34,222 bases of DNA from an uncultured Hungatella sp. (GTDB lineage: Bacteria; Bacillota; Clostridia; Lachnospirales; Lachnospiraceae): contig CATLBO010000028.1 of the NCBI GenBank assembly GCA_949879025.1, positions 1 to 34,222 on the forward strand. The letters run 5' to 3'. The notes under the pieces are model-generated. The model was not told where the DNA came from, did not search any database, and was given only the letters and a program-made list of their open reading frames with translations. Below are positions 14,673 through 30,582 of this stretch, piece after piece. How positions within the stretch are numbered: position 1 is the stretch's first letter; every line of letters begins with the position of its first letter. The translations under genes were made by a program, and so were the position numbers.

Positions 14673-14748
14673 AGGATACCGGATGCAGATAACATGCCGC
14701 TAACAAATAAATAAACAATTTCTAAATGAATTCTTGCAGATTTCTCAA
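14673..14748 (-). promoter_or_regulatory. Promoter A with shared two-component operator
   Basis: On the minus strand, the operator TTTAGAAATTGTTTA lies at 14712-14726 and the candidate -10 TATCCT at 14673-14678, exactly 48 bp start to start. Four half-sites of the type (T/G)TTA(G/T) follow each other every 11 bp, the spacing expected for an OmpR-family regulator. No -35 of consensus type is seen, fitting activator dependence. The segment 14688-14748 is identical at 57 of 61 positions to 23921-23981. It drives operon A and begins right next to the stop codon of the upstream acetyltransferase. Confidence 0.7.
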
Positions 14749-14752
14749 CTTA

Positions 14753-15355
14753 TCAGACGGCTTCATCAGATGAACTTCCCTCTGAATCCGTTTCGATTGG
14801 TTTTATTACTTTTGCAGGTGCGCCTCCCACAATCACACCAGCCGGAACATCCTTTGTTACCACAGCCCCGGCTGCAACGATAGCCCCATCACCAATCGTA
14901 ACGCCCTGTAATACTGTAGCATGGGCGCCGATCCATACATTTTTTCCGATATGAATGGGCTTTGGAATAAGATCTCTTCGATGCTGCGGGTTCTGTTCAT
15001 GATTTAAAGTTGCCAGAACGACCATCGGGCCAATCAATGCCCCATCATCAATGTAAATTCCGCCCTGATCCTGAAATTGGCAGCCTCCGTTTATGAAAAC
15101 ATGCTTTCCAATGTGAAGATTTTTTCCACAATCCGTATAAAACGGCGGAAACAGTCCGAAGCTCTCATCAATCTCCCGTCCTGTAAGAAGGGAAAACAAC
15201 TCCCGTAGTTCCTGCGGTTCATGATAGCCGCAATTTATCCGGGCTGTTATTTTCATTGCCTCCTGGCTCAGTTTCCCCATATATGCAAGAACCTCTGAGC
15301 CACGCACCACCTTTTCACCAGAATTCATTGCTGAAATAAAATTTTCCGTATTCAT
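14753..15355 (-). CDS. Sugar O-acetyltransferase (maltose/galactoside acetyltransferase-type)
   Basis: A 200-residue left-handed beta-helix acetyltransferase. Hexapeptide repeats run from about residue 75 ([33 protein letters not shown]) to the characteristic end, [34 protein letters not shown], with an active-site histidine in ATLNHEQ. It matches the LacA/Maa family rather than serine acetyltransferase. ATG 15355 is chosen for AGCAGGAGGATTTT upstream; the frame extends to 15418 without such a site. It is expressed alone, from the LysR-type promoter at 15425-15495, and is followed directly by promoter A. The natural acceptor is unknown. Confidence 0.85.
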
Positions 15356-15424
15356 AAAATCCTCCTGCTTACTTTTCAATTTGAAACTACTATAAACATT
15401 CATAATGTGTTTCTCCATAGATTT

Positions 15425-15495
15425 AGTATAAGAAAGCAGGGTAAAAATAGCAAATACTTATGCTTAATAGTTTTCCATAACAAATAATTATACTT
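15425..15495 (-). promoter_or_regulatory. LysR-type promoter of the acetyltransferase gene
   Basis: On the minus strand ATAAGTATTTGCTATTT spans 15445-15461. Its TTGCTA serves as -35, followed by a 17-bp spacer and -10 TATACT (15425-15430). A second, weaker copy (AACAAATAATTATACTT on the plus strand, 15479-15495) lies exactly 30 bp upstream, three helical turns away, as expected for paired LysR sites. The same core occurs at 24030-24046 and, with one change, at 31994-32010 beside the lysR gene. Confidence 0.65.
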
Positions 15496-15585
15496 TTATA
15501 ACCGGTGTTTCATAAAGGTTAATGAAGGCCCACTTTTCGAATAGGAAATCAGTACACAGTAGTTACATTAGTTCATGCCAAAATA

Positions 15586-15620
15586 AGAGCCGGCATCCCA
15601 AAATTCATGCTGCCGACTCT
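15586..15620 (-). terminator. Terminator of operon B
   Basis: AGAGCCGGCA (15586-15595) and TGCCGACTCT (15611-15620) form a 10-bp stem with one mismatch. Read on the minus strand it is followed by TTATTTT. It begins 10 bases after the stop codon of the HPr-like gene and would end the long operon B transcript. Confidence 0.65.
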
Positions 15621-15630
15621 GCTTAACCTT

Positions 15631-15897: not shown

Positions 15898-16785
15898 TCA
15901 TCCTAAGATGCCGTATGCTTTCATCGCCAGCTCCAACCTTCTTTTGTTTGTTTCTTCCAGTTCTGTAAGGGGCATTCTTGGTATGCCTGCCGCAAATCCC
16001 ATAAGGTTCAGGGCGCTCTTTACCGGAATGGGATTTACTTCACAAAACAAAGCCTCAATCAATTCCATGGATTGCAGCTGCAGTGCGGCGCTCTTAGCAG
16101 TCTTTCCTTCAAAATACAGCTGGCAGATATCGTGTGTCTGCCTGGGCACCACATTGGACAGAACAGAAATGACACCCTTTCCGCCCAAAGAAAGAACCGG
16201 CACAATTTGGTCGTCATTGCCCGAATATACGTCTACATCGCCCTCTGCCAAAGCCAAAAGTCTCGCTGTCTGGGAAATATTCCCTCCTGCATCCTTTACC
16301 CCTACAATATTTTTTACTTCACGGCACAGTCTGACAATCGTTTCTGGCTGAATATTACATCCTGTCCTACCCGGCACATTATACAGCAGTACCGGAATCT
16401 GAATAGCCTCAGCTACCGTTTTAAAATGCTGATACAGCCCATTCTGGGTTGCCTTATTATAGTAAGGCGAAACCAGCAGAATACCATCCGCCCCCGCTTT
16501 TTCTGCCTCCACAGAAAGCTCCACTGCTGTATTTGTGCAGTTTGAACCTGTTCCTGCAATCACCGGCAGCCTTCCGGCCACTGTCCTGACACAGTGCCGG
16601 ATCAGGTTCAGCTGCTCCCCATGTGTGAGCGTGGATGCCTCCCCGCTGGTCCCGGCTACAATGATGGCATCCGATCCGTTCTGTATCTGGAATTCTGCCA
16701 GTCTGTCAAACTCTATATAATTGATGCTCCCATCTTCATGGAAGGGCGTTATGATTGCTACGCCGGCTCCCTTAAAAATCGACAT
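15898..16785 (-). CDS. dapA: 4-hydroxy-tetrahydrodipicolinate synthase
   Basis: A 295-residue TIM-barrel aldolase of the DapA family. It catalyses condensation of pyruvate with aspartate semialdehyde in the lysine and diaminopimelate pathway. The key residues are present: Thr46 and Ser47 in GTSGEAST, Tyr109 in [12 protein letters not shown], Tyr135 and Arg140 in LYNVPGRTG, and the Schiff-base lysine K164 in VGVKDAGG. Start ATG 16785 has GGAGG inside the end of cysE, with which it overlaps by 28 bp, so the two are tightly coupled. It lacks the rest of the lysine pathway here, so it may be a second, specialised copy. A related aldolase activity cannot be excluded. Confidence 0.9.
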
Positions 16786-17342
16786 GCCCCTTCCTCCTTC
16801 TGGCTGTGATAAATCTTCGTTGGCTGTTCTTCCCGTACAAGGCGCCCCTGTGTCCCAACCACTGTGGCACCGGCAGGAACCTCCTTCAGTACAACGGTTC
16901 CTGCTCCGATTCTGGCACCTTCCCCTACGGTAAAACTGCCCAAGATTTTAGCGCCTGTGCCAATAATCACGTTATCTTTGATGGTCGGATGACGCTTTCC
17001 CTGTTCTTTTCCTACCCCTCCAAGGGTAACTCCGTGATACATGGTAACATTGTCCCCAATCTCTGCAGTCTCGCCAATGACCACTCCATTTCCGTGATCT
17101 ATAAAAAGCCCTTTTCCAATCACTGCACCCGGATGAATCTCAATCCCGGTTTTTCTTGCAGCCCTCTGGGAAATCCATCTTGCAAGGAAATAATGCTTTC
17201 CCAGATACAGCTTATGTGCCAGCCGATAATACAAAACTGCCCTGAATCCGGGATACAGGATAATCTCCAGATTGCTTTTGATTGCAGGATCTCTTTCACG
17301 GATTACCTTTGCTTCCGCTTCCAAATAAGAAATAATACCCAT
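16758..17342 (-). CDS. cysE: Serine O-acetyltransferase (EpsC-type CysE)
   Basis: A 194-residue serine acetyltransferase of the short EpsC type. It forms O-acetylserine, the precursor of cysteine. The N-terminal helical part contains [27 protein letters not shown]. The hexapeptide beta-helix carries the diagnostic [24 protein letters not shown] with catalytic Asp and His, then [23 protein letters not shown] 17342 follows GGAAGGAAAGG. No O-acetylserine sulfhydrylase (cysK) is in the window, so its product must be used by an enzyme elsewhere or by a dedicated pathway. It overlaps dapA by 28 bp in operon B. Confidence 0.92.
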
Positions 17343-17365: not shown

Positions 17366-18049
17366 TTACGGCTGTGAAATCTGGATAATCTTATTGCCCC
17401 ATCCTTCCAGCACCGGGTTTTCTTCCACTGCCGTTATAAATTCTTCCGTTGCATCAAATGTACCGATCTTTGTATATTCTGCTGAAATCTCCGCATCGTG
17501 GTAAAACAATACGATACGGTTAGGATCGGAATAAAATACGTCCCCCGCCTTTGCCTCTGTCACGGTTTCCGAATGGTCAGGAATCTCATACCTGCTAGGG
17601 ATATCATAATACTGCAGCACACTGTAGTCCGCATCCGGATCACGTTCATAGATGGGAAGTCTCCAGTCCGAAGTCCCCACATACCTTGCGATGGCTTCCG
17701 CAGTTTCATTGTCCAAAAGCGTCATCATAAAAGCCTCTCCGTTATCTCCGAACCGGACTTCCAACTGTGCGCTGCCGCTTTCAGCCGTCTGAGCCCCGCC
17801 AGACTGATTCTCCATACCGGCAATGTCCTCTGTATCGGTACGGTTTTCCGAAGGCTTCTCTGCTCCGGCATGTCCAATATTCGGATCATCTCCCACAACA
17901 TTGCTGCCCTCAGCAGCCGTATCTCTTGCCCTTTCGGTATCCTGGCCGTTCTGTCCGCATCCCACCAGAAGCATGGCCGAAAGTGCCGCTGCCGCCATCA
18001 TCCCCATTCCTCTTTTTACCATAATTGTCCTGTAGTTGTTGTTCTTCAT
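17366..18049 (-). CDS. Lipoprotein with a cyclophilin-like domain (operon B)
   Basis: A 227-residue protein (ATG 18049; ATG 18061 is an alternative, and neither has a perfect ribosome binding site). The signal peptide ends with a lipobox LLVGC (Cys31). A disordered acidic linker (residues about 32-90) leads to a cyclophilin-like domain (about 90-215): [31 protein letters not shown], then [31 protein letters not shown]. This repeats the order seen in the operon A protein (loss-of-substituent helix, then a GD-hydrophobic-strand block, then FY and a KIG turn). It sits between the ABC permease and cysE, so an extracytoplasmic partner role for the transporter is possible (inference). Confidence 0.85.
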
Positions 18050-18111
18050 TTTTGTTTCCATCCTTTCTTTATTTTTATTGCCTGTTATTTCGATTTTCTT
18101 TCCATCATGTT

Positions 18112-20487
18112 TTAAGATTCCGCTGTCAACACGTTCATGTCCTCCTTTCTGATCCTGCCTGATAACAGCCAGGCGAGCCCAAAGAATAACAAGATTACTA
18201 TTCCACCCGGAAGGAGAACACTTCCAAGTGTATTCCCCGATGCGAAATTGCTTATCCCGGCCAGACGCATGACAGTAGACACAACAGGGTCAGTGAACCC
18301 AATAGCCGCCATCGTCCCAATCACTGCCCCAGCCGCTGCCACCAGTCCAAAGCGGAAGGCAAAGGAGATCCGGAGCATCCGGACAGAGCATCCGATGGAT
18401 TTATAGATTCCCATATCCTTCCGCTCCGCATCCAGAATCTTTGTCCCTGCCATTCCCGTGACAATACAGATAAATACTGCACTCATTCCATACAGGACAA
18501 GAATCATCAGATGCATGGCAGATATGATTCCAAAAAGCCCAGGCCAGGAATTTTCATGGACATGGACGTCCCCGCCATAGGCTTGTTCCAAAGCCTCGGT
18601 AATAGCCTGTTTCTGGGAAACGTCTTCCAGGAAATAATGGTAACACCACAGGCGGCTGTCATCCTCTCCGATGGAGAGATACCCTTCCCTGCTCATTCCC
18701 AGATTTGCCCCCATATCGTTGGCACAGTGGTAGATTCCTGAAACCGTAAACTCCCTGCTGCCTTTATTTCCACGGATTGTAACGGAATCTCCTACATCTG
18801 CTCCCAGGTCTGCTGCCAGCGCCTCTGTCAGCACTACCTGATCGGCCTCTCTGCTGGTCTGCCCCCTGCTGATGTGGAAACGCTCCGGCTCTGTGATTAC
18901 ATTTGCCGTATAATTTGTTCCGTTCACGGAAATGCTGGGCATGGCTAACAGATAGCTGTCTATGATATCCGTATAGGAAAGCACCATCTGTTCCATTTCT
19001 TCTACAGGAAGTTTTCCCATAACCTGCACGCCCAGGTCAAGGTCTGCCGGATTAAAGGCATCCATCATCCCCTTCCCGTCCGTCCCCAGCCAGCTGTTCA
19101 TCCTACCTGCCAGGGATGCGAAGAACACCAGAAGTGCCGCTACCAGACAGGCACTCGCATAACGCCTCCTGCCCGTCAAAACCTGCCGCAACGCCAGATG
19201 GAACGTGAGCCCTTTTGCCCGAAGCCCATTGCGGAAAAAAGTGGTTCCTGACACGGATACCCTATCTGATTCTCCCCGGATGGCTGCCATCGGCGTAATC
19301 TTCCGAATTTTACGAAGGCGCAGGATACAAAAGCCAGCCGGAACCAACAGGAGAATTGCAAATATCCCCACACAGGGCAGAAGCGGAAAACGAACTGGGA
19401 GCAGGACTCCCGTAGTGGTAACGGTCATCCGGCTCACCATCCCTGCCATTGGAACCGCTAAAAGCATCCCCAGAATGATGCCGACTCCCATCGCTCCCCC
19501 ATACTGTACCAGCAGCTGACCGGAAAGTTTCCTGCCTGTAAAGCCAAGAGTTTTTAAAATCCCAAAATTTTTCCATTCCTGCTCCACCAGTCCGGAAATG
19601 CTGTGTCCCATTACCGCCATGGCAACTCCCAGCAAAACCACCGCAAAAGCCGCCATGATCGCACAAAATGCATTCTGGAGGATTGCCATGAAACCGGCAA
19701 TCGTATCTGCGCTGTGGATAAATTCCGTATACATGGAAAGAGGCGTGTTCTCTGTTAGCTCCCTGTTCATTTCGGAAGCGTTCATGCCGCTTTTTGTTTC
19801 AATATGGATCATGCCCCCGTCCCTGGCCAGGGCGTCCATCCCGGTTTCCTCTATGACAGAGCAGATTTGCTCATAGGTCTTTCCTGCGATCAGAAACCCT
19901 TTCATCCCAATCATGGAGCTGCCCATAAAAGGATCTTCATAATAACCCGCCACCGTCAGGCTTAACTTACGCCCGCCTCTGGCAATGGGAAAGGTAATTG
20001 TATCACCAGGCTCCAGATCCATCATGGATTTCATGGAAGGGGAAACGTACACTTCATCTTCCCTGATTTCTTCCGGAGCTTTTGCATAACCGGAAAGATT
20101 ATTCTGAAAGAAACGATACCTGTCCCCAAAGGAAGCTTCGCTTCCTTGAGAGTTCCATGGAATCATCTGCCCCTCGCTGTCAGATTCCATGCCGTTTGCC
20201 TCATATTCAGAAAAAACCAGTTCCTGAACCTCCGCTCCCTCTACCCCTTCCTGTTCCCGGATACTTTCCAGCAGGAATTCCATATCCGGCACATCCGATG
20301 CCCATGCGGTAAGATCTCCAAAACCTGCCCTCTCCATTTCTTCCCGGATATAGCTGTTTCCCACAAGCGCAATCATCAGTACCGTTGTCAGGGAAAGCGC
20401 TGTCAGGAACAAAAGGATTCCAATTCCGATATAACTACCCTTATGCCGTTTCATTCCCGCACGTATCATAATCTGATTTTCCAACAT
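18112..20487 (-). CDS. ABC transporter permease, double FtsX-type
   Basis: A 791-residue membrane protein with two FtsX-like modules. An N-terminal transmembrane helix (about 19-43) is followed by a large extracytoplasmic domain (about 45-265), three helices (about 265-385), a further helix near 435-460, a second extracytoplasmic domain (about 460-655), and three C-terminal helices (about 655-780). This layout matches MacB/LolC-like and bacitracin-type mechanotransmission permeases rather than solute channels. ATG 20487 has GGGAGGTG about 10 bases upstream. The ATPase stop is 15 bases before it, so the two form one transporter. It may act in antimicrobial-peptide or envelope stress defence or lipoprotein handling (inference). 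Confidence 0.88.
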   Translation of the reverse strand: MLENQIMIRAGMKRHKGSYIGIGILLFLTALSLTTVLMIALVGNSYIREEMERAGFGDLTAWASDVPDMEFLLESIREQEGVEGAEVQELVFSEYEANGMESDSEGQMIPWNSQGSEASFGDRYRFFQNNLSGYAKAPEEIREDEVYVSPSMKSMMDLEPGDTITFPIARGGRKLSLTVAGYYEDPFMGSSMIGMKGFLIAGKTYEQICSVIEETGMDALARDGGMIHIETKSGMNASEMNRELTENTPLSMYTEFIHSADTIAGFMAILQNAFCAIMAAFAVVLLGVAMAVMGHSISGLVEQEWKNFGILKTLGFTGRKLSGQLLVQYGGAMGVGIILGMLLAVPMAGMVSRMTVTTTGVLLPVRFPLLPCVGIFAILLLVPAGFCILRLRKIRKITPMAAIRGESDRVSVSGTTFFRNGLRAKGLTFHLALRQVLTGRRRYASACLVAALLVFFASLAGRMNSWLGTDGKGMMDAFNPADLDLGVQVMGKLPVEEMEQMVLSYTDIIDSYLLAMPSISVNGTNYTANVITEPERFHISRGQTSREADQVVLTEALAADLGADVGDSVTIRGNKGSREFTVSGIYHCANDMGANLGMSREGYLSIGEDDSRLWCYHYFLEDVSQKQAITEALEQAYGGDVHVHENSWPGLFGIISAMHLMILVLYGMSAVFICIVTGMAGTKILDAERKDMGIYKSIGCSVRMLRISFAFRFGLVAAAGAVIGTMAAIGFTDPVVSTVMRLAGISNFASGNTLGSVLLPGGIVILLFFGLAWLLSGRIRKEDMNVLTAES

Positions 20488-20502: not shown

Positions 20503-21264
20503 CTACCACCTGAGCCTGGAAAGCCACTGGCTTACATCTCTTTCCCGCTGCTTTTCTTCCATCTCGTTATAAGGCTTCAAAGCCAGTTCATCGCAGACCT
20601 TTCCATCCTCCAGATAAAGAATCCGGTTCCCTCTGGCTGCTGCCTGCAGGTCATGGGTCACCATCAGGATGCTCTGCCCTTTTCGGTTTAAATCCGTTAA
20701 AAGTCCCAGAACTTCACGGGTATTTGCCTGGTTTAATGCGCCTGTAGGCTCATCGGCAAACAAAAGTCCCGGCTTTCCAATCATAGCTCTGGCAATGGCC
20801 GCCCTTTGCGCCTCACCACCGGATACCTGGGAGGACAGTCTGTCCTTCGCCTCTTCCACATCCATCTGCCGCAGGAGATTTGCCGCCCTTTCTTTTACCT
20901 TTTCGGCACTGTCCTTTTTGCTCACATATCCCGCCACCAGCACATTTTCCAAAAGCGTCAGGTTACTGACCAGATGGGTCTGCTGGAATACAAATCCAAA
21001 TTCCTCCGCCCGAAGCCTGGCCATCCGGTTTTCTGAAAGACCGCTGATCTCCTGATCCCGGTAGAGCACGCGGCCTCTGCTTATCTGATCCATGCCGCTT
21101 AAACTATATAAAAGCGTAGATTTCCCGGCTCCTGACGGCCCCATGATAACGGTAAAATCTTTTTCAAATATTTTGATGTCAATTCCATCAAGGACTTTTG
21201 TTTCCGCCTTTCCCTGCCGAAAAACTCTGGTGATCTTTTCTCCCTGTAATATCGTATCTGCCAT
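20503..21264 (-). CDS. ABC transporter ATP-binding protein (MacB/BceA-like)
   Basis: A 253-residue ATPase with Walker A GPSGAGKS (residues 42-49), Q-loop region FVFQQTHLVSNLTLLENV, signature SGGEAQR (148-154), Walker B with LLFADEPTGALN, and the switch histidine in MVTHDLQAAARGNRI. The NLTLLENV and DEPTGALN texts fit the MacB/LolD/BceA class, which pairs with FtsX-type permeases. It lies 15 bases upstream of its permease. Only 3 bases separate it from the AMP ligase upstream. Confidence 0.92.
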   Translation of the reverse strand: MADTILQGEKITRVFRQGKAETKVLDGIDIKIFEKDFTVIMGPSGAGKSTLLYSLSGMDQISRGRVLYRDQEISGLSENRMARLRAEEFGFVFQQTHLVSNLTLLENVLVAGYVSKKDSAEKVKERAANLLRQMDVEEAKDRLSSQVSGGEAQRAAIARAMIGKPGLLFADEPTGALNQANTREVLGLLTDLNRKGQSILMVTHDLQAAARGNRILYLEDGKVCDELALKPYNEMEEKQRERDVSQWLSRLRW

Positions 21265-21267
21265 TTG

Positions 21268-22620
21268 TTACGCCACCTTTCCCTTTAATATCAAAGGTTT
21301 TTTTCCTGTTCGGATGTCTGGTAGAATTTCATTTACAAAATTTACATAGAACTGCACAAAATCCAGTTTTTTCTCTGACAGGATTTCCCTCATCTGTTGC
21401 AGCATCTCCTGTCTGATTCTTTCTTTTGATGCTCCATGCTCTGTTTCTGCAAACATCTCAAAAGTGTCTTTTGTAGTCTGCCGGAACTGGTAATCTTTCA
21501 GCCCCTCGATGCAGAACCCTTCAATCGCCAGCGGATGGAGAAATTCCCTGTTTCCCCTTCCGTCCTCAAACCAAAGGACATCCTCGTTCCGTCCCAGAAG
21601 CCCCACTGCTCTGGTGAATGGAAGCTCCCCTCCCTCTGGCGCTTTCAGCGTCAGCCGGTCAGAAAGGCGATACCGGATCAGCGGCTGCGCATAATTATAA
21701 AGGCAGGTAAGGTACATCACTCCGTTTTCCACCTCAATGACATTCATATCGTCAAACAGAAGCATCCCGTCCTTTGGGTTGGTTTCCACTCCAAGAGCCA
21801 GGGACTCACTAGAACCATAGAAATTGACCACCTGTGTCCGGAATATCTTTTCCAGATAGATGCGTAAGCTTGTTCCCAACGGTTCTCCACAGGAGATTAC
21901 CCTTTCCGCATCCAGACTGACTTCCCCATTCTCCATCAGCTGTGCCAGAATTTTGATAGCAGACGGATAGCCTATAACGATATTGGGCTTAAACGCTTTC
22001 AGCTGGCTGATCCATTCTGTGACCGGCGTTTTGATGTCCAGATAGAGCTGGCTGGCGCCGACTCCACGAGTCCCGTCTCCCACCGCCATAGCGCCTCCAT
22101 ATCTCCCGTCTGTGGCCGCTATATAGACAATTCTGGGACGTTTCATCAGGAGTCTCAAAATCTGCGGCATGGACATTCCCCAAAGAGCCGCCCGGATGAT
22201 ACCCAGAAGCATCTGGCTCCAAGCATCCCCATCATATACAAAGTATCCGGGTTTCCCGGTGCTGCCGGAGGAATGAACCACATGGTACTTTCCCTGATAA
22301 GGTTTCCTGTCTGCCGCTTCCCCCGCATCAAATTCCCGCAGGTTTTCCTGTTTTAAATCCGGCACTGTGACCAGTTCATCAAAATGCTCCAGAAGTGCCT
22401 GTTTATCAATGGTGGGGAAGCAGGAAAGGGGCAGCGTATCCAACTGTTCTTCCGTAATTCCTGCACGTTCAAAGGCCGTCCGGTAATAAACGGAATGTTC
22501 CCATGCGTATCTGAGAAGTTTCCGCAATTTTCCATCCTGCAGGGAACGCATCTTATCAGCGCTTAATTTCACATTCTTTTTCAGTCTGTATAAATCTGTT
22601 AAAGTCTTTAAGTAATTCAT
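21268..22620 (-). CDS. AMP-dependent ligase, phenylacetate-CoA ligase (PaaK/CapK) family
   Basis: A 450-residue adenylate-forming enzyme. It has the PaaK-like N-terminus (LRYAWEHSVYYRTAFERAGI), the adenylate-binding loop SSGSTGKP (117-124), an FYGSSES motif (about residue 275) and a YRLSDRLTL motif (about 315). Such enzymes activate a carboxylic acid as acyl-AMP and often make a CoA thioester. The substrate is not readable; CapK-like members also act in polysaccharide or specialised metabolite clusters. ATG 22620 is chosen for GAGGAGGACGAAA upstream. It lies between the Ntn hydrolase and the ABC transporter genes, so activation and removal of an acyl group may be coupled (inference). Confidence 0.85.
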   Translation of the reverse strand: MNYLKTLTDLYRLKKNVKLSADKMRSLQDGKLRKLLRYAWEHSVYYRTAFERAGITEEQLDTLPLSCFPTIDKQALLEHFDELVTVPDLKQENLREFDAGEAADRKPYQGKYHVVHSSGSTGKPGYFVYDGDAWSQMLLGIIRAALWGMSMPQILRLLMKRPRIVYIAATDGRYGGAMAVGDGTRGVGASQLYLDIKTPVTEWISQLKAFKPNIVIGYPSAIKILAQLMENGEVSLDAERVISCGEPLGTSLRIYLEKIFRTQVVNFYGSSESLALGVETNPKDGMLLFDDMNVIEVENGVMYLTCLYNYAQPLIRYRLSDRLTLKAPEGGELPFTRAVGLLGRNEDVLWFEDGRGNREFLHPLAIEGFCIEGLKDYQFRQTTKDTFEMFAETEHGASKERIRQEMLQQMREILSEKKLDFVQFYVNFVNEILPDIRTGKKPLILKGKVA

Positions 22621-22656
22621 TTTCGTCCTCCTCGTCAAGATTGTTGCATGGCTCAC

Positions 22657-23799
22657 CTATTCAACCGAAATGACATATGCCGTTTTATAATTTTCCCTGT
22701 GGTAATAAATCAGTTCCTTTGTTTCCTGATTCATCACAATACTCCATTCGGTAGATTCAAACTCGCCAAAATTATCCTTGCTCACGCTGTCCAGTGCATT
22801 CCGTACCTCTACCTCCGTCATCTCCCTGTGTTCTTCCAATGTCTGGGTAAGGATTTCATACCGGGTATGGGACTGGGCAGTTCCTATTCCCTGCTTCTCC
22901 CCCGAAGCCAGATAAAAGTTAGTGACAACAGGCGTCTTGGTGACAATCATTTCATGATCCACATATTCTACTGCCACGCTCCGGCCGTCCGCATCTGCCA
23001 GAGCCAGATGCACCATCATTCCCATGGAGCTGTGAAAATCATATTGCCGCAGCAGCTCCAGCGCTTCTTCCACATTGGCCGCTTTGTCAAGCAATAACCG
23101 GATTGCCGTGGTAGTAGTAAGGTCAGGCTTTTCCGTATCCTGATTGATACTTGCGGAGTCCTGGATCATATTCACAGAAACCGCCAACCCCTTTTCATTC
23201 ATTCCATCCAGTGGCGCATACAGGGAAACAACCGCCTGCATCTGATCCGGTAATTCTGAAAGGTCAAGTCCTCCAGCCCGGATGAAATCCATATTGACGG
23301 TTGAAACAGAAGCGTATCCATTTTCCGGCCTAGCACTGACAATCAACCCTCTGCACGCATTCCAGTCAAAATTCCTTCCGAACAGATATTCGCCGCCCCG
23401 GTTTTTCACTGACAGGGTACTGCATCCAAAAGGAGCTCCTTCCATATAGATTTCCTGTGCCAGCAGCGATGTGATATATGCCGCAACATCCGTGTCTGAA
23501 CCAGCGCCTCCCTGTTCTAAAAATGTATCAAAGCCATAATCCCCTTCATATCGGACGGTTGACAGCCCTGCTTCCAGTTCTGTGATTTCAGAAGTTGGAG
23601 TGATCCGGACTGTATTCTCATCTTTGTTTCCTTTTTCATTCTCTTCTTCCGTTATTGTTTCTTCCTCTGTCCTGCTTTTCTGCACTTCTTCGCTATGGCT
23701 GTTTACCTCAGTCTGCTCACCGGAATATCTTCCGCATCCTGACAACAGGCACGATATGCCTAAAACTAAAAGCAGACCTATATAAAATCTTTTTTTCAC
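22657..23799 (-). CDS. Exported lipoprotein of the linear-amide C-N hydrolase (choloylglycine hydrolase/C45) family
   Basis: A 380-residue Ntn hydrolase precursor with a GTG start at 23799 (AAAGGAG upstream; the frame extends to 23928 through the leader without support). The signal peptide ends in lipobox LLSGC (Cys21). An acidic linker follows (about 30-70). The catalytic cysteine is internal, Cys125 in FGCSTL. With Cys as residue 1 the GRNFDW motif places Arg and Asp at 17 and 20, the spacing of bile-salt hydrolase Cys2, Arg18 and Asp21. DGMNEKGLAVSVNM also fits the family. An autocleaved propeptide is expected. The amide substrate is unknown. First gene of operon B, with a paralogue in operon C. 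Confidence 0.88.
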   Translation of the reverse strand: MKKRFYIGLLLVLGISCLLSGCGRYSGEQTEVNSHSEEVQKSRTEEETITEEENEKGNKDENTVRITPTSEITELEAGLSTVRYEGDYGFDTFLEQGGAGSDTDVAAYITSLLAQEIYMEGAPFGCSTLSVKNRGGEYLFGRNFDWNACRGLIVSARPENGYASVSTVNMDFIRAGGLDLSELPDQMQAVVSLYAPLDGMNEKGLAVSVNMIQDSASINQDTEKPDLTTTTAIRLLLDKAANVEEALELLRQYDFHSSMGMMVHLALADADGRSVAVEYVDHEMIVTKTPVVTNFYLASGEKQGIGTAQSHTRYEILTQTLEEHREMTEVEVRNALDSVSKDNFGEFESTEWSIVMNQETKELIYYHRENYKTAYVISVE

Positions 23800-23905: not shown

Positions 23906-23981
23906 ACTATAGCCACCCTAGATAACATGCTTCTAACAGAAAAATAAACAATTTCTAAATGAATTCTTGCAGATTTCTCAA
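23906..23981 (-). promoter_or_regulatory. Promoter B with shared two-component operator
   Basis: Minus-strand operator TTTAGAAATTGTTTA at 23945-23959 and -10 TATAGT at 23906-23911, again exactly 48 bp start to start. The 11-bp half-site series (TTTAG, TTTAT, GTTAG, GTTAT) is the same as in promoter A, and 57 of 61 positions match between 23921-23981 and 14688-14748. It should drive the eight-gene operon B down to the terminator at 15586. Confidence 0.7.
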
Positions 23982-24046: not shown

Positions 24047-24172
24047 ACTTTATCTATTTAACAAGGAAATAACTATACAAAAAAAATCGTAATTCACTCC
24101 CAATACAGCCACGCCCACCAAACATAGTCTGACGCATATCTACTCATCCGCACACTCAGACTTCTGCCTGCA

Positions 24173-24231: not shown

Positions 24232-24290
24232 GTTTTACATCTGAAATAATATGTTATTTTTTTCTGCATGGACATTGGGTAAGGAACCTC

Positions 24291-25217
24291 TTATTTTTCA
24301 AAAATATATGTTCCCTTCGGAATGCTTTCAATATATTCCCCTCCACTTATTACCTGTCCCAGCTCATATAGTCCATTGTATGAACCGAACTCTTTATAGA
24401 ACATAACCACATCTCCCCAGGGAGCAAAATAAGCCAATGTACCCGTCTTTGCATCTGCAAGAGGCGTATTGGATGTCTCCAGGCCCTCCGGAGGATAAAA
24501 TATCTTTTCATCATCACTGTAATCAGATATTTCTACTTGAAATGGCAACTGCCCATACAATGATTCTGCTGCCGCACTGTCATTGAGTTCAAATACAATC
24601 TCATGTTCATCAACCATAATGCGCATCTGTTTCCCCATCCTGTATCCCTCCTGATCTTCTGCTGACGATTCCAGCTTTTCCAGCGTTACTGTGCCATCAA
24701 AACTTTCGAGGTACTCTGTCCCGGAGGTACAGATGCCCAGACGGTGCATCTCATCTCCCGCATAGAAATCTTCATATAAAATGAACACATCTCCCCAAGG
24801 TTCATAATAGCTCAGTTCGCCTTTTATCCCATCATGATAAGCCTCGTCAGCTGTAACAGGAAGGCTCTCTGGCGGGTAGAACATCCACTGGGCATTTCTG
24901 AAATTCTCTGTATCCAGCACAAGCGGAAGCTGCTCATACAGTTTCTCTGCCGCTTTTGTATCGTAAAGCTGAAAAACCGCTTCCTTTTCATCTGAACTGA
25001 TTTTTATAGAAAGTCCTGAAAGGTTTAACCCTGGACTTTCATGATTGCTGTGATTGTCTGCATAATCTGTTTCCAGGGATTCTGCCATATTTTCTGCAGA
25101 CTGCTCCGGCTGTTTCTCTGTTTTCTCCGAATGGATGTTTCTGTCTGTATTGCCGCATCCTGAAACGGACAACAATGTTATGGTAGACAACAGGAATAAC
25201 ACTATCTTTTTCAGCAT
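24291..25217 (-). CDS. Lipoprotein with two tandem cyclophilin-like domains (operon C)
   Basis: A 308-residue protein. The signal peptide ends in lipobox SVSGC (Cys21). Two homologous domains follow: about 68-185 (LNLSGLSIKISSDEKEAVFQL, then FYPPESLPVTADEAYH, then LSYYEPWGDVFILYEDF) and about 195-305 (MRIMVDEHEIVFEL, then FYPPEGLETSNTPLAD, then LAYFAPWGDVVMFYKEF). The shared FYPPE and PWGDV blocks show an internal duplication. The fold family is the same as in operons A and B, but here two copies are fused. ATG 25217 overlaps the stop of the CMD-cupin gene by 7 bases. Last gene of operon C. Confidence 0.85.
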   Translation of the reverse strand: MLKKIVLFLLSTITLLSVSGCGNTDRNIHSEKTEKQPEQSAENMAESLETDYADNHSNHESPGLNLSGLSIKISSDEKEAVFQLYDTKAAEKLYEQLPLVLDTENFRNAQWMFYPPESLPVTADEAYHDGIKGELSYYEPWGDVFILYEDFYAGDEMHRLGICTSGTEYLESFDGTVTLEKLESSAEDQEGYRMGKQMRIMVDEHEIVFELNDSAAAESLYGQLPFQVEISDYSDDEKIFYPPEGLETSNTPLADAKTGTLAYFAPWGDVVMFYKEFGSYNGLYELGQVISGGEYIESIPKGTYIFEK

Positions 25218-25969
25218 AATACGCTCCTATAAGCATCGTCATCCACCGGTTCCAGCCATTCGTTAGAACCTTCTTCGGCAGGAACCTCAACAGCCAGATG
25301 GGAGAACCAGCTGTAAGGCGCTGCTCCATGCCAGTGTTTTACGCCTGCCGGAATATTTACTACATCGCCGGGGAATAACTCCTGTGCCTTTTTCCCCCAC
25401 TCCTGATAATATCCCCGGCCGCTGACACAGATCAGAATCTGTCCTCCTCCGCTCTTTGCGTGATGGATATGCCAGTTGTTACGGCAGCCAGGTTCAAAGG
25501 TCACATTAAAGATGCCCACCTGCTCAGCAGAAACCGGTGCCAGATAACTCTGTCCGATAAAATACTGCGCAAAAGCTTCATTGGGCTGCCCTATGGGAAA
25601 CAGCATGGAAGCTGCATGTGCAGATTTTGCATCCGCTTCGGAACATTCCTCTGACCAGATTTCTTTGGCCATCCGGAATGCCGCCCATGCCTTGGGCCAT
25701 CCGGCATAAAAGGCTGCATGTGTCAATATTTCCGCAATTTCCGTTCTGGTAATCCCGTTCTTTTTCGCACTCATCAGGTGGAACTGAAAAGAAGAATCCA
25801 CCAGTCCCTGAGCCATCAGTGAAACCACCGTTACCAGTGACCGGTCCCTCAAAGAGAGTTTATCTTCCCTGCTCCACACTTCTCCAAATAACACATCATC
25901 GTTTAACTGTGCAAATTTCGGGGCAAATTCACCCAGTGTGTCTCTGCCCGCTGTCTGTTTTACTGCCAT
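25211..25969 (-). CDS. Carboxymuconolactone decarboxylase-cupin fusion protein
   Basis: A 252-residue protein. The N-terminal half (about 10-105) is a carboxymuconolactone decarboxylase/AhpD-like helical domain (LSLRDRSLVTVVSLMAQG, then FHLMSAKKNGITRTEIAEILTHAAFYAGWPKAWAAF). It lacks the CxxC of true AhpD peroxidases. The C-terminal half (about 130-235) is a cupin with the metal-ligand pattern HIHHAKSGGGQILIC, and GDVVNIPAGVKHWHGA. The fusion is widespread in gut bacteria beside flavodoxins and alpha/beta hydrolases, typically under LysR control. Role unproven. ATG 25969 follows AAGGAGGACAAG. It overlaps the lipoprotein gene by 7 bases. Confidence 0.88.
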   Translation of the reverse strand: MAVKQTAGRDTLGEFAPKFAQLNDDVLFGEVWSREDKLSLRDRSLVTVVSLMAQGLVDSSFQFHLMSAKKNGITRTEIAEILTHAAFYAGWPKAWAAFRMAKEIWSEECSEADAKSAHAASMLFPIGQPNEAFAQYFIGQSYLAPVSAEQVGIFNVTFEPGCRNNWHIHHAKSGGGQILICVSGRGYYQEWGKKAQELFPGDVVNIPAGVKHWHGAAPYSWFSHLAVEVPAEEGSNEWLEPVDDDAYRSVLC

Positions 25970-26031
25970 CTTGTCCTCCTTGTAATTCCTATGATTTTCT
26001 CTGCCAACGCTATCCAGCCATCCTCTTTTTA

Positions 26032-26973
26032 TCACTGCATATTCACTGTAAAGAAATCTGCCAGTCTGTCAAAGGGAATACGGTCTCTCCGGTCATACAG
26101 GTCGATATGCTCCGCATCTTCCACCACCAGCATTTCTTTCGGCTCTAAAGCCCGCTCATAAGCCGCATCGCTGAAAAACCGGGAATGTGCCCTGTCTCCA
26201 ACAACAAACAGGATTGGGCGGGGAGAAATCTCGTCAATGAAATCCAACGGCCGGAAATTCATGATCGCCAGCTCACTGGTCGTAGTAAACCCGCCTCTGG
26301 CGCTCGGATGATGCCCCCTCTTCAATGCATAAAAACGGAACCACTCCGCCCCCGGCTCCGGAATATCCTCCGGCACCTTGTCGATTGGCTGCTCCGGGAA
26401 TCCCGGCAGGTACTCTGGATATCCGTTTTCCGCATCAATCCACCGTTGATTTGAAAGGCGCTCCTTTACGCTCTGCAGTTCTTCCCTGTCCATATTTCCC
26501 CTGACTGCCACATTCATATCATACATGCTCATAACGGCAACTGCACGGATTCTGGTATCACACTGAGCCGCTGAAAGCGCAAACCCGCCGGAACCGCATA
26601 TCCCGATTACACCGATTTTTTCCCTGTCTACAAACTTCTGAAGCCCCAGAAAATCCACCGCCGCACTGAAATTCTCCACAAAAATATCCGGTGACGACAC
26701 ATTTCTGGGAAAGCCCCCGGATTCCCCCATAAAGGACTGGTCAAAGGTCAGCACAACAAATCCTTTCTGTGCCAGTTCATTGCCGTACACACAGGGGCCC
26801 TGTTCCTTCACCCCTCCATACGGCGCACCGATAATCAGCGCCGGATGCTTCTGATCCAGAGAAATTCCCTTTTCAAAGTAAAGTTCTCCTGTAATATCCA
26901 GCCCATATCGGTTCCTGTAAACTACTTTTTTCCTCTCCACACTCTGTGATAATTCTAAAATATGTCCGCTCAT
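26032..26973 (-). CDS. Alpha/beta hydrolase with a Cys nucleophile elbow (YcjY/dienelactone-like)
   Basis: A 313-residue alpha/beta hydrolase. The elbow reads GVIGICGSGG with Cys126 at the nucleophile position instead of the usual Ser, like dienelactone hydrolase and YcjY-type proteins. Supporting blocks are the oxyanion turn HPALIIGAPYGGVKEQG, FDQSFMGESGG, the acid-loop candidate PILFVVGDRAHSRFF, and a terminal EDAEHIDLYD histidine motif. There is no signal peptide, so it is cytoplasmic. ATG 26973 has GGAGG 9 bases upstream. It lies between the Ntn hydrolase and CMD-cupin genes of operon C. Substrates may be lactones or thioesters of reactive carbonyls (inference). Confidence 0.85.
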   Translation of the reverse strand: MSGHILELSQSVERKKVVYRNRYGLDITGELYFEKGISLDQKHPALIIGAPYGGVKEQGPCVYGNELAQKGFVVLTFDQSFMGESGGFPRNVSSPDIFVENFSAAVDFLGLQKFVDREKIGVIGICGSGGFALSAAQCDTRIRAVAVMSMYDMNVAVRGNMDREELQSVKERLSNQRWIDAENGYPEYLPGFPEQPIDKVPEDIPEPGAEWFRFYALKRGHHPSARGGFTTTSELAIMNFRPLDFIDEISPRPILFVVGDRAHSRFFSDAAYERALEPKEMLVVEDAEHIDLYDRRDRIPFDRLADFFTVNMQ

Positions 26974-27046
26974 GTTCCATTCCTCCTTCAATTTTTTATT
27001 TTCTTTTGCGGATAACTTATTTTTTTTCTATACCAGTACTGCTTTC

Positions 27047-28105
27047 TCAGGAACTGCCTGCCATAAAGGAATAATATTTCTGGTAGTTTTCCCTATGGTA
27101 ATAGCGTGCCTCCCCGGTACTCTGATTATAGACAATGCTCCACTCCGTAGACGCAAAATCAGAATCAAAATTGTGCTTGCTCACACTGTCAAGGGCATCC
27201 CGTATCCCGTCCATACTAAATGGGAAACCGCTCTGCAGCATATCATCCAGCATGGCATATCGGATTTTGGATTCTTCTGTTCCGATGCCGTACTTCTCAC
27301 CGGGCGACAGGTAATAGTTTGTGACAACCGGAGTTTCTGTTACCACCATTTCATTGCCAATATACTCTACAACCACAGAATGCCCGGCTGCATCAGCAAT
27401 GGCAAAATGCACCATCATTCCCGCCGATGCGTGCATGTCATACTGAGAAAGCAGCTCCAACGCTTCCTCCACATCAGATGCCTTATCAAGCAGCAAACGT
27501 ACTGCCATTGTCGTAGTCAGATCCGGTTTCCCTGTATCCTGCTGGAATCCCGGACTGTCCTGGATCATCAGAACCGCCACACACAGCCCCCTTTCATTCA
27601 TCCCATCCATAGGCGCAAAAGGCGCTGCCACTGACAAAAGACGCATCTGTGTTTCTTCCGGCATATTCAGTCCCAAGTTTAGGAAATCCATGTTTACGGT
27701 GGAAACAGAATCGTACCCTTCCGCCGGATTGGTCAGCACGATTAGCGCCGTACAGGTTCCCCAGTCAAAATTCCTTCCAAACAAAGCATCGCCCTCCGGT
27801 GTCCTGGCAGAGATGGTGCTGCACCCAAAAGAACCGCCCCTCAAATCTATGGGAAGCAAGCCATGGAACACATCCTGTATCACAAATTCCGCCACCGCCA
27901 GATCATCGGATGCACCTCCCTGCTCCAGAAAGCCGTCCAGATTATAATCGCCTTTATATTCCATGGAATACAACCCATCCTCCAGTTTCCTGACACTTGC
28001 GGCTGTCCGAATATTCCTTTGGAAAAGCAGTATAAAAGTAATAAGTACCACTACCAGCAAAACGAAAAAGGTATAAACGATATATTTCAATTTTATTCTT
28101 TTCAT
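27047..28105 (-). CDS. Membrane-anchored linear-amide C-N hydrolase (choloylglycine hydrolase/C45 family)
   Basis: A 352-residue paralogue of the operon B enzyme. It has an N-terminal membrane helix (YIVYTFFVLLVVVLITFILL, about residues 9-28) instead of a lipobox, then a shorter propeptide. The Cys nucleophile is Cys95 in FGCSTI, and GRNFDWG keeps Arg and Asp at positions 17 and 20 counted from it. DGMNERGLCVAVLM and the C-terminal ALDSVSKHNF with STEWSIVYNQ closely match the paralogue (ALDSVSKDNF, STEWSIVMNQ). It should face the outside. ATG 28105 follows AGGAGCATGAT. Third gene of operon C, directly after the response regulator. Confidence 0.88.
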   Translation of the reverse strand: MKRIKLKYIVYTFFVLLVVVLITFILLFQRNIRTAASVRKLEDGLYSMEYKGDYNLDGFLEQGGASDDLAVAEFVIQDVFHGLLPIDLRGGSFGCSTISARTPEGDALFGRNFDWGTCTALIVLTNPAEGYDSVSTVNMDFLNLGLNMPEETQMRLLSVAAPFAPMDGMNERGLCVAVLMIQDSPGFQQDTGKPDLTTTMAVRLLLDKASDVEEALELLSQYDMHASAGMMVHFAIADAAGHSVVVEYIGNEMVVTETPVVTNYYLSPGEKYGIGTEESKIRYAMLDDMLQSGFPFSMDGIRDALDSVSKHNFDSDFASTEWSIVYNQSTGEARYYHRENYQKYYSFMAGSS

Positions 28106-28142
28106 ATCATGCTCCTGATTGCTTTTTTTCCCTCCAACTTTT

Positions 28143-28844
28143 TTAATCAATCCGGAACCGGTATCCCGCTCCCCACACTGTTTCAATAAACTGGTTCTCT
28201 GCATCAATTTTCCCCATCTTATCCCGCAGGCGGTTGATATGGACCGTCACAGTAGCCGCATCCCCCAGAGAATCCATTCCCCATACCCGGTCAAACAGGG
28301 TATCCTTTGAAAATACCAGATTGGGATTTTCCGCCAAAAACAGTAGCAGTTCAAATCCTTTATTGACCAGTATGACTTCCTTTTTATCCAGATAAACTCT
28401 TCTGGACTTCGGCAGGATCGTCAGATTCCGGTAGGTAATCTCTGTTTCCTGCTGTTCATCCTCTTTTTCCGCAGAAGAAAGTAGGTTATGGATATAGATG
28501 TGGGATTTCACCCTGGCCACCAGTTCCGTAGGGCTGAAAGGTTTTATCAGGTAATCATCTGCCCCCAATCCCAGTCCACGAATCTTGTCAATATCCTCTT
28601 TTTTGGCTGTCACCATAATGATTGGCAGCCGCAGGCTCCTGCGCAGCTCCCGGCATACATCAAAGCCTGTTTTGCCGAGGAGCATCACATCCAACAGAAT
28701 GGCATCATATTTTTCGGTTTTCGCCTTCTTTTCTCCGGTGATACCGTCAAAGGCCAGATCGGTTTCGTATCCGTTCGCCTCCAGATAGTCACGTTCTAAT
28801 TCTGCAATTAACTCATCATCTTCTATAATCAGTACCCTTTCCAT
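28143..28844 (-). CDS. OmpR-family response regulator
   Basis: A 233-residue two-domain regulator. The receiver domain (1-120) has acidic pocket IIEDD (Asp9, Asp10), phospho-acceptor Asp52 in AILLDVMLLG, the switch Thr in IIMVTAKKED, and Lys in YLIKPFSPTEL. A linker leads to a winged-helix domain (about 135-233) with LPKSRRVYLDKKEVILVNKGFELLLFLAENP, DAATVTVHINRLRDKMG and the wing VWGAGYRFRID. Start ATG 28844. The gene follows the kinase by 73 bases. It is the natural candidate to bind the TTTAGAAATTGTTTA operators of promoters A, B and C. Confidence 0.93.
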   Translation of the reverse strand: MERVLIIEDDELIAELERDYLEANGYETDLAFDGITGEKKAKTEKYDAILLDVMLLGKTGFDVCRELRRSLRLPIIMVTAKKEDIDKIRGLGLGADDYLIKPFSPTELVARVKSHIYIHNLLSSAEKEDEQQETEITYRNLTILPKSRRVYLDKKEVILVNKGFELLLFLAENPNLVFSKDTLFDRVWGMDSLGDAATVTVHINRLRDKMGKIDAENQFIETVWGAGYRFRID

Positions 28845-28917
28845 TGTAGCTGATTCCTTTCCTTATCTCTGCCCGTATTTCAGGGCATTATGGTACACCC
28901 TTGTGGTGTTTCCTCTA

Positions 28918-30402
28918 TCAGTCTATAACCGGAATGCTGACAATCACTGCCAGCCCTCCTCTGTTTTCTGCCTTTATGGTTCCTCCATGGCCAAAGACGA
29001 TTTCCCTCACTACCGCCAGCCCGATGCCGCTTCCCTTTTCTGCACTGTTTCTGGAATCATCCACCCGGTAAAAGCTGTCAAATATCTGTTCCAGACATTC
29101 TTCTGGAACCCCTGGACCGTCATCCTGAAATACCAGTTCCAGATTGTTTCCCTCTATGGTCCTTTTTAGGGAAATAATGACTCTCGAATTTTCTTTTCTC
29201 CGATATCTCACCGTATTGGCAAACAAGTTATTAAAGATGCGCTTAAATTCTTCCCTGTCCAGCCGAACCAAAAAACTTCCCTTTCCGCAGAAATATTCAA
29301 TCTGCACCTGCTGATTTTCCATATCCGGACGCACAAGCTCCAGATATTTTTCCACATAATCTTTGAAATCCGTTTCTTCCATATGATACCGGAAACCAGC
29401 ATCCAGCCTGCTGTATTCTGAAAGGCTGTCTACAAGGCTGACCAAGTTCCCGGTCCTTGTCTTTATGGCCTGCAGATAACGGAGCCTCTTTTCCGGTGTA
29501 TCTGCAATGCCCTCCAGAAGTCCGTCCAGATATCCCATAATGGTAGTCAAAGGCGTCCGAAGGTCATGAGAGATTCCGGTGTTCAAATCCCGTCTGCGCT
29601 TTTCATCCTTCAGACGCTGCTGTACGGATTCCTGCAGGTAGGCACGCATCTCGTCAAAATCCCTACATACCTGGCCGAACTCATCTTTTTTCTCATACTG
29701 CATGGGCGTATCCAAATTTCCCTCCCGAATCTCTTTTGTACCAAGACTCAATTTTCCAAGGGGCTTTAAAATACTGCCGGAAATCCACCAGGAGAGGATG
29801 CCGTTAATACACACCGTCAATACCACAAAAAGGATCAAAATGCCGGCCAGATAACGCAGGATACAGTTCTTCAGATAATTTACCATGGCTCCATCAGTTT
29901 CCTGGGGATGGACTGCCGTAATGCAGAAGACGTTCTCCCCATGCCAGAAAGTGCTTTTAATGACTGACACCTCATACCGACTGGCTGTCAGCATTTTCGC
30001 ATAGTCGATTGCATCTCCCGCCACAGACCGCGCTGTTTCCAAATCCGTTTCGGACAGGTTGGAATAAATACTCTCTCCGTCCTTTGTAATCATAAAGCGG
30101 TATCCCAGACCAGACAGTTTATTTTCCAGATGTGTCATCTCATCACTGTGCCGGATCTGGGCCTGACACTCATCCATCTCCGGGCAATGCCCCCAGTTGT
30201 TTTCCCACAGCTCCTGCTGATAGTTGTAGATCATGCTCTGGGCAAACTGCACACCATTTTCATCACTGTACATATCCACAAACGTATGCCAGTAGCTTCC
30301 CAGAGAGGTGTTCAGACACACAATAAATACAATCGTTGTAAATAAAATCGGTATCAGAACCATCATGATATTAGATAATCTGATTTTTTTCTTAATGGTC
30401 AC
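28918..30402 (-). CDS. Sensor histidine kinase
   Basis: A 494-residue kinase with a GTG start at 30402 (AAAAGGAG about 11 bases upstream). Transmembrane helices at about 11-30 and 183-207 flank an extracytoplasmic sensor of about 150 residues. HAMP follows (about 208-260), then the HisKA dimer domain with His279 in GISHDLRTPLTTIMG, and the HATPase domain with N box (NLFANTVRYRRKE), DDGPGVPEE and GSGIGLAVVREI. The sensor domain holds several cysteines (CPEMDEC near 73-79). It is the first gene of operon C, behind promoter C, and is presumably autoregulated. The large sensor domain differs from the short BceS-type kinases. Confidence 0.93.
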   Translation of the reverse strand: MTIKKKIRLSNIMMVLIPILFTTIVFIVCLNTSLGSYWHTFVDMYSDENGVQFAQSMIYNYQQELWENNWGHCPEMDECQAQIRHSDEMTHLENKLSGLGYRFMITKDGESIYSNLSETDLETARSVAGDAIDYAKMLTASRYEVSVIKSTFWHGENVFCITAVHPQETDGAMVNYLKNCILRYLAGILILFVVLTVCINGILSWWISGSILKPLGKLSLGTKEIREGNLDTPMQYEKKDEFGQVCRDFDEMRAYLQESVQQRLKDEKRRRDLNTGISHDLRTPLTTIMGYLDGLLEGIADTPEKRLRYLQAIKTRTGNLVSLVDSLSEYSRLDAGFRYHMEETDFKDYVEKYLELVRPDMENQQVQIEYFCGKGSFLVRLDREEFKRIFNNLFANTVRYRRKENSRVIISLKRTIEGNNLELVFQDDGPGVPEECLEQIFDSFYRVDDSRNSAEKGSGIGLAVVREIVFGHGGTIKAENRGGLAVIVSIPVID

Positions 30403-30512
30403 TTTCTATGTTCTCCTTTTCCTGCCAGCTCTACTGTATATCCACAATGCCTTATACTTAGCATAACCTGTTCGCTTTCCTGATTATGAACAAAAACCTT
30501 CTATCTACGTTC

Positions 30513-30582
30513 AGATTAGCATGGCAGGATAAAAGAATTCACAATATTATCTAAACAATTTCTAAACTAAACTCTTTCTAAA
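30513..30582 (-). promoter_or_regulatory. Promoter C (two-component operon) with duplicated operator
   Basis: Minus-strand operator TTTAGAAATTGTTTA at 30552-30566 with -10 TAATCT at 30513-30518, again exactly 48 bp. A second copy, TTTAGAAAGAGTTTA, lies upstream at 30568-30582, so the half-site TTTAG occurs four times. The operator overlaps the stop codon of flavodoxin gene 2 (30562). It suggests autoregulation of the kinase operon. Confidence 0.7.

Follow-up and report, generated by a model that had tools for sequence, protein, structure and literature searches.

That a response regulator can activate a promoter in place of its −35 element is established for the OmpR/PhoB family. The sites of one member, ArcA of Escherichia coli, are 11-bp direct repeats with extra copies, and in E. 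coli ArcA/PhoB-type arrays repeats lie 11 bp centre to centre and often continue for one to three beyond the dimer site (PMC3798270). RR_1586, an OmpR-family regulator of Clostridioides difficile, is reported to have direct repeats with an 11-bp period, a TTA core and the consensus DRTTAAGNWWWDRTTAAGNWWW, a site before its own operon, and a regulon predicted from conserved sites, with sporulation and germination genes among the targets (PMC6222199). VanRS is reported to have directly repeated 12-bp sites upstream of the −35 and an activated promoter with a poor −35 (PMC4405338). Here we describe an arrangement of this general type in a 34,222-nucleotide stretch of DNA from an uncultured Hungatella sp. 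(GenBank assembly GCA_949879025.1, contig CATLBO010000028.1, positions 1 to 34,222; the whole stretch is called the window). A promoter element of 11-bp half-sites, followed by a −10 hexamer at a fixed distance, precedes three predicted operons, A, B and C, and operon C begins with a two-component system made up of the kinase C1 and the regulator C2.

A preliminary description of the window had proposed that the three operons share one operator whose start lies exactly 48 bp from each −10 hexamer, and both points were borne out. Exact copies of the 15-mer TTTAGAAATTGTTTA lie at 14712-14726, 23945-23959 and 30552-30566, all three on the minus strand, and the hexamers TATCCT (14678-14673), TATAGT (23911-23906) and TAATCT (30518-30513) start 48 bases past the operator start (+48). 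At operators A and B the 15-mer is the beginning of a longer element, in which four half-sites follow in 11-bp steps (the third and fourth at +22 and +33) before the −10 hexamer is reached. A and B have an identical run of 40 bases, 22 of which lie upstream of the 15-mer. The preliminary description had included neither this run nor half-sites 3 and 4, nor the two further host sites given below. Operator C is a weaker form, with the half-sites TTTAG and TTTAG followed by TTGTG and TTTAT; on a scoring matrix built from 18 A- and B-type cores it reached 10.2, under the threshold used, compared with 58.0 and 59.4 for A and B. The elements and hexamers are as follows, the 38-position pattern being one that includes half-sites 3 and 4.

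14683..14726, minus strand: operator array A, half-sites TTTAG, TTTAT, GTTAG and GTTAT, 0 mismatches to the 38-position pattern
14673..14678, minus strand: promoter A −10-like hexamer TATCCT, +48 from the operator start, with the alternative TATTAT at +54
23916..23959, minus strand: operator array B, four 11-bp half-sites, 0 mismatches to the 38-position pattern
23906..23911, minus strand: promoter B −10-like hexamer TATAGT, +48
30523..30566, minus strand: operator C, weaker, 11-bp steps, missed by the 38-position pattern and by the matrix
30513..30518, minus strand: promoter C −10-like hexamer TAATCT, +48
28918..30402, minus strand: C1, sensor histidine kinase with HAMP, HisKA (PF00512) and HATPase_c (PF02518) domains
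28143..28844, minus strand: C2, OmpR/VanR/YycF-like response regulator, PF00072 (Response_reg) and PF00486 (Trans_reg_C)

Taken alone, TATTAT at +54 is the better hexamer of promoter A; among A-type promoters TAnnnT stands at +48 in 8/8 and at +54 in 6/8. The first half-site of operator C includes the stop codon of the upstream flavin mononucleotide (FMN)-reductase gene. The 22 bases 5′ of operators A and B (14727-14748 and 23960-23981) are identical and continue the 11-bp rhythm (TTGAG, GCAAG), and a comparable stretch precedes the DUF3737 gene in the more distant locus L043; these bases possibly hold a third dimer site. Scans for generic promoters and terminators in the window returned counts near chance (34 versus 27.8 and 15 versus 16.9), and scans of the window with Rfam (gathering threshold) and for tRNA had no matches.

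The locus has what is expected of an OmpR/PhoB-family system: a receiver plus winged-helix regulator, an adjacent HisKA/HATPase_c kinase, tandem repeats of about 11 bp before the targets (clear at A and B, weaker at C) and a site before its own operon. The OmpR-type reading of the preliminary description, which had matched the 11-bp periodicity to a regulator encoded by operon C, fits. The direct repeats, their period and TTA core resemble those of RR_1586, as do the site before the regulator's own operon and the prediction of a regulon from conserved sites. The system differs in its half-sites (TTTAG/GTTAG/GTTAT), their four copies, the fixed −10 and the kind of target gene. The RR_1586 direct repeat DRTTAAGNWWW matched, among the operators, only C, with 2 mismatches, and was found in the window 2 times versus 1.1 expected. 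The best NCBIfam match of C2 is the VanR group (E 1.9e-58, below cut-off), and VanRS shares the repeated sites and poor −35 but not their 12-bp size or position; the VanR and VanS cut-offs were not reached (197.7 bits versus 350 and 149.9 versus 400), and the VanR consensus (T/C)CGTANGAAA(T/A)T, at 2 mismatches, was absent from the three operators and found in the window 34 times versus 31.5 expected. YycF is the second best match (E 2.6e-57, below cut-off). Operators A and B recall the WalRK (YycFG) system of Firmicutes (PMC9210968) in their half-sites 3-4, which are similar to the WalR box, and some relatives have cell-envelope targets; unlike WalRK, however, the system is separate, sparsely distributed and adjoins its targets, and the first two half-sites, which are the most informative, are not WalR-like. 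The ArcA/PhoB-type arrays belong to an unrelated regulon, and their repeat number and spacing vary (PMC3798270), where here both are nearly fixed. Literature searches for a Lachnospiraceae two-component regulon with a binding motif gave only a review on efflux systems, and a search for a Robinsoniella two-component system or regulon found nothing.

The element was then sought in the host assembly (3,794,409 bases, 82.8% complete), a scan that had been suggested with the original proposal. There is no exact copy of the 15-mer beyond the three in the window, where about 0.02 would be expected from composition (56% A+T). At ≤2 mismatches the 15-mer matched 18 places compared with 30 for the reversed pattern, so these loose matches are attributed to chance. 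The 38-position pattern at ≤3 mismatches was found at four places, namely operators A and B and two sites on contig C22, and its reversed control at 0.

To assess the −10 position independently, sites were chosen by the 38-position pattern at ≤2 mismatches or by the exact 15-mer, regardless of −10. The 61 distinct sites, from the host as well as from relatives' loci, fell into 41 clusters at 80% identity. TAnnnT lies at exactly +48 in 36 of the 41, the next best offset between 38 and 65 being +53 with six. The five remaining clusters have TATTTC, CATAAT or TTCCGG or are the sites in L136 and L140, which belong to genomes without a regulator orthologue and look like chance matches. The consensus reads TTTAGaaAttG TTTAt.ttTtT GTTAg....aT GTTAT.t.... 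then TAt..T at +48; the four half-site blocks, in 11-bp register, carry 15.1, 11.6, 8.9 and 8.6 bits, a conservation that is partly by construction since the sites were chosen by their half-sites, while the +48 hexamer was not so chosen. No conserved −35 was found: at least 4/6 matches to TTGACA 16-18 bp 5′ of the hexamer occur in 3/41 clusters compared with 15% at random, and this absence suggests activation. In relatives' loci the element mostly lies 5′ of the kinase gene, the DUF3737 gene or the gene of B1, the amide hydrolase that begins operon B; exceptions are L012, where it precedes an adenosine monophosphate (AMP) ligase gene, and L044, where it precedes an unnamed gene. B1 promoters retain the array and the +48 hexamer in species where the B1 proteins are 59-71% identical and the flanks differ. 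That A and B were duplicated is rejected as a full explanation.

Co-occurrence of element and regulator was examined in two genome samples (G and L denote genome and locus handles, G000 being the host). From 80 related B1 loci, 77 were listed as genomes (3 share a genome) and the first 50 by rank were searched, the other 27 being left out; the element was counted at ≤1 mismatch to the 38-position pattern, and a regulator orthologue at ≥67% identity. The element was present in 17/17 genomes with a regulator orthologue and in 3/33 without one. In a family sample of 299 genomes, searched with a 27-position pattern at ≤2 mismatches and a regulator threshold of ≥72% identity, it was present in 4/4 genomes with the regulator (G000, G013, G033 and G179) and in 5/295 others. 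The former hold nine places and the latter one each, 14 in total versus 3 for the reversed control, and of the five genomes with a site but no regulator only G253 combines a full array with a −10 at +48. Because three genomes, recognized by identical places, are common to both samples (G013/G300, G179/G312 and G033/G313), the counts are not independent of each other. Another 391 genomes of the order, some already in the family sample and covered by the element search only, had 0 sites at ≤1 mismatch and three at 2 mismatches, fewer than the 15 places of the reversed control. These patterns support control by the embedded two-component system, as far as sequences can show it.

The presumed recognition helix of the regulators, which we take to lie at the HINRLR/HVNRLR stretch, points the same way. 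Orthologous regulators in genomes with sites have HINRLR or HVNRLR, and regulators at L110-L133 (52-56% identical, genomes without a site) have HIKKIR in 17/24. The stronger notion that an NRLR helix always accompanies the element was rejected, G223 and G104 having no site.

The kinase promoter was compared in the nine relatives' loci with 400 bp 5′ of the kinase gene. In six, the 15-mer is exact and is followed by TAATCT or TAATGT at +48; in the other three loci the operator C site is missing or incomplete. Self-regulation is therefore likely in the close relatives of the host and no more than possible beyond them. That operon C shares the operator, as first proposed, thus stands for the 15-mer and the hexamer; its later half-sites are weaker, and the site is not general.

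Several observations weigh against control by C1-C2. One of the three deviating kinase promoters, in L073, has 1 mismatch and GATACC instead of TAnnnT at +48, and in L026 and L044 nothing closer than 6 mismatches was found within the 400 bp. Among the nine family sites in regulator-bearing genomes, one (G179, contig C4) lacks a −10 at +48. At ≤3 mismatches the 38-position pattern matched 83 places in the 50 genomes compared with 30 for the reversed control, a noise level for which only sites with ≤1 mismatch were counted. G302, G306 and G317 have sites without a regulator orthologue; in two of these three exceptions (loci L028 and L032) the contig ends at or a few kb from the place of the regulator, but L043 is not at a contig end, so G317 stays an exception. 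Regulators with HVNRLR (G223, 62% identical) or HINRLR (L114) are also present in genomes where no site was found at ≤3 mismatches. The site of G253 (L135, G253:C70:1878-1904) lies some 400 bp upstream of a regulator that shares only 29% identity with C2, and some sites of Clostridium transplantifaecale are nearer a second regulator, 52% identical to C2. The independent events are also few, because 3 changes are enough to place the label 'element upstream' on a tree of 81 B1 proteins, and well-supported branches force 2 of these.

In that tree, the element-bearing loci form one group of 19 rows and a second group of three, an Enterocloster bolteae metagenome-assembled genome, C. transplantifaecale and Clostridium sp. 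H5. Nested in the first group without an element is Blautia schinkii (L037), in which no site was found at ≤2 mismatches and the regulator search gave no match at E ≤ 1e-78. B1 of the second group is 59-63% identical, as distant as in many element-free loci, and a regulator orthologue is present in all three. As read from these sequences, the few independent events all go in one direction, element and regulator together.

The best explanation, to which we assign a probability of roughly 0.8, is that the C1-C2 system activates operons A, B and C through the four-repeat array with its fixed −10. The histidine kinase C1 would sense an extracytoplasmic signal and phosphorylate C2, two dimers of which would occupy the four 11-bp half-sites along a single face of the DNA, in head-to-tail orientation. 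The bound array would cover the place of the −35 element, and C2 would recruit RNA polymerase to the −10 hexamer beginning 48 bp past the first half-site, activating rather than repressing. Promoter A would couple the DUF3737/LysE/C-S-lyase operon to the signal and promoter B the exported amide-hydrolase/ATP-binding cassette (ABC)-exporter cassette, and the weaker arrangement before the kinase operon would close a feedback loop. The locus is, on this evidence, a real OmpR-type regulon, in which a familiar type of switch appears to drive an undescribed gene set.

The regulon is not confined to the island, because the two further host sites lie on contig C22 (G000:C22:2373-2410, L205, and 24782-24819, L206). 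They precede a LysR gene (TAAACT at +48) and a transglutaminase-core gene (CATAAT at +48). Their surroundings hold several LysR genes, a carboxymuconolactone-decarboxylase gene 81% identical to C5 and what read as aldo-keto reductases. In C. transplantifaecale the 38-position pattern is found at 12 places at ≤3 mismatches, 11 of them on one contig and one strand, within 72 kb that hold the regulator. The first genes behind sites in this species and Clostridium sp. H5 include B1, the kinase gene, a flavoprotein-DUF3737-C-S-lyase set, a MATE exporter and a choline-binding-repeat protein, and H5 adds a penicillin-binding protein that is partnered by RodA/FtsW. The C. transplantifaecale penicillin-binding protein is about 4 kb past a site, behind NlpC/P60 and subtilase genes.

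These wider sites bear on the strongest rival, that a paralogous regulator of a second island, or both regulators in cross-talk, reads the element and that operons A and B do not depend mainly on the embedded system. Paralogues 61-64% identical are found in G299, G301, G305 and G310; in G301 the paralogue (63-64% identical) lies among element sites that flank it on both sides, and its helix is also HINRLR. The first contig C22 site of the host is identical over 38 bases to a G301 site about 10 kb from the paralogous regulator. The element is therefore not private to C2, the G253 site beside a 29% identical regulator pointing the same way, and more than one regulator type may use it. No host paralogue of the G301 kind was found at E ≤ 1e-70 in the 82.8% complete genome, where the only further regulator at that level is 53% identical (contig C12); the contig C22 sites may reflect cross-talk or a gap in the assembly. 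Against the paralogue, moreover, 13/17 regulator-bearing genomes have only orthologues at E ≤ 1e-78, and operator C precedes the kinase gene itself. We regard it as improbable that a paralogue is the principal reader.

Less probable still is that WalR (YycF), a house-keeping regulator encoded elsewhere that commonly controls cell-wall genes, reads the element. The stretches TGTTAG-N5-TGTTAT at 14689-14705 and 23922-23938 are one base off TGTWAH-N5-TGTWAH, the consensus in the available part of PMC9210968, and in some relatives the element is followed by peptidoglycan genes. However, WalR boxes at one mismatch number 5 in the window compared with 3.0 expected, a count at chance level, with none at operator C, and C2 matches at E ≤ 1e-70, assumed to be mostly of the WalR/YycF kind, occur in 243/299 family genomes compared with 9 that have the element. 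That the shared sequence is a recently copied stretch, with A and B as duplicated upstream regions and C similar by chance, has next to no probability: it would account for the run of 40 bases common to A and B, which reaches 22 bases upstream of the 15-mer, and for the weakness of operator C past its first two half-sites, but the flanks of C differ and the same 15-mer and hexamer recur at the kinase promoters of six relatives, just as array and hexamer persist before diverged B1 genes.

The predicted operons comprise 4 (A), 8 (B) and 6 (C) genes, which agrees with the 18 genes first counted. Besides C1 and C2, they are as follows, with a nearby LysR-family gene; Ntn stands for N-terminal nucleophile.

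13734..14597, minus strand: A1, DUF3737 protein, first gene of operon A (Pfam PF12541, E 1.4e-133)
13129..13752, minus strand: A2, LysE-type exporter (Pfam PF01810)
12391..13095, minus strand: A3, cyclophilin-like protein (Pfam PF18050)
11164..12345, minus strand: A4, PatB-family C-S lyase (NCBIfam TIGR04350, above cut-off)
22657..23778, minus strand: B1, C45/choloylglycine-hydrolase-like Ntn amide hydrolase (Pfam PF02275/PF03417; NCBIfam NF040521, above cut-off)
21268..22656, minus strand: B2, PaaK/F390-synthetase-like adenylate-forming enzyme (matches below family cut-offs)
20503..21264, minus strand: B3, LolD/MacB-type ABC ATPase
18112..20487, minus strand: B4, FtsX/MacB permease
17366..18061, minus strand: B5, cyclophilin-like protein
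16758..17342, minus strand: B6, serine O-acetyltransferase CysE (TIGR01172, above cut-off)
15898..16785, minus strand: B7, DapA (TIGR00674, above cut-off)
14753..15418, minus strand: B8, hexapeptide O-acetyltransferase, stop codon 26 bp before operator A
27047..28207, minus strand: C3, second CBAH/C45-like Ntn hydrolase (Pfam PF02275; NCBIfam NF040521, just below cut-off)
26032..26991, minus strand: C4, alpha/beta hydrolase (weak match)
25211..26035, minus strand: C5, carboxymuconolactone-decarboxylase plus cupin protein
24291..25217, minus strand: C6, protein with cyclophilin-like domains
32030..32992, plus strand: LysR-family gene, a homologue of which is divergent to B1, replacing the operator, in many relatives

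The open reading frame of C3 overlaps C2, so its true start is probably downstream of 28207. Sequence searches of the PDB matched C2 to OmpR-type regulators, B2 to PaaK-like ligases, and B1 to choloylglycine hydrolases at weak E-values together with spurious repeat proteins. The first 260 residues of C1 gave a weak structure model (mean predicted local distance difference test score, pLDDT, 66; nine sequences), whose best fold match was a WalK model at a template modeling (TM) score of 0.36; it was not used for inference. The N-terminus of B1 is of lipoprotein type, as read by eye from the sequence. With the lipoprotein-type hydrolases, the ABC exporter and the LysE exporter, and the cell-wall enzymes added in relatives, the predicted gene products point outside the cytoplasm. 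A cell-envelope or amide-compound response as the theme of the regulon is a tentative guess, with the odds somewhat against it. The literature search found no publication naming DUF3737, a gene present in many related loci, and none on these gene families together.

Elsewhere in the window, an inverted repeat ACCGG/CCGGT with a large loop, followed by TATTTTTG, was noted by eye at 24171-24240, between operons C and B, and could be the terminator of operon C. The left block of the window (156-10149) holds a DUF932 protein, DUF6809, a sigma-70 region 4 protein and a 1019-aa fusion with N6-methylase and SNF2-like helicase motifs; the block may belong to a mobile element.

The regulator before B1 differs among relatives. 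In the 74 loci left after removal of 6 of the 80 with <500 bp upstream of B1, the element precedes B1 in 21 and a divergent LysR gene lies within 700 bp in 31, with both in 0 and neither in 22. Fisher values calculated during the analysis take no account of relatedness and were not treated as probabilities. In the window, the LysR gene is instead oriented divergently from the FMN-reductase genes upstream of the kinase operon. This exclusion suggests that one regulator was replaced by another, and the direction and history of the exchange are our inference.

A broader history can be sketched, which we consider possible but rather unlikely: an ancestral amide-hydrolase/adenylation/ABC-export cassette controlled by LysR would have come under a two-component system in gut Clostridia, and its four-repeat promoter would have been copied before as many as about ten same-strand island operons (exporters, cyclophilin-like proteins, flavoproteins and a dedicated penicillin-binding protein together with its RodA/FtsW partner). 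A single envelope signal could then set off an entire chemical-defence programme. What the analysis offers more directly is a sharp predicted operator for a regulator that occurs in Lachnospiraceae and in related genomes. With the array and the −10 at +48, much of the regulon would be readable directly from sequence, and families of unknown role such as DUF3737, the cyclophilin-like proteins and the C45 hydrolases would be tied to one signal. The exclusion of LysR gene and operator before the same gene would be a natural case of regulator replacement.

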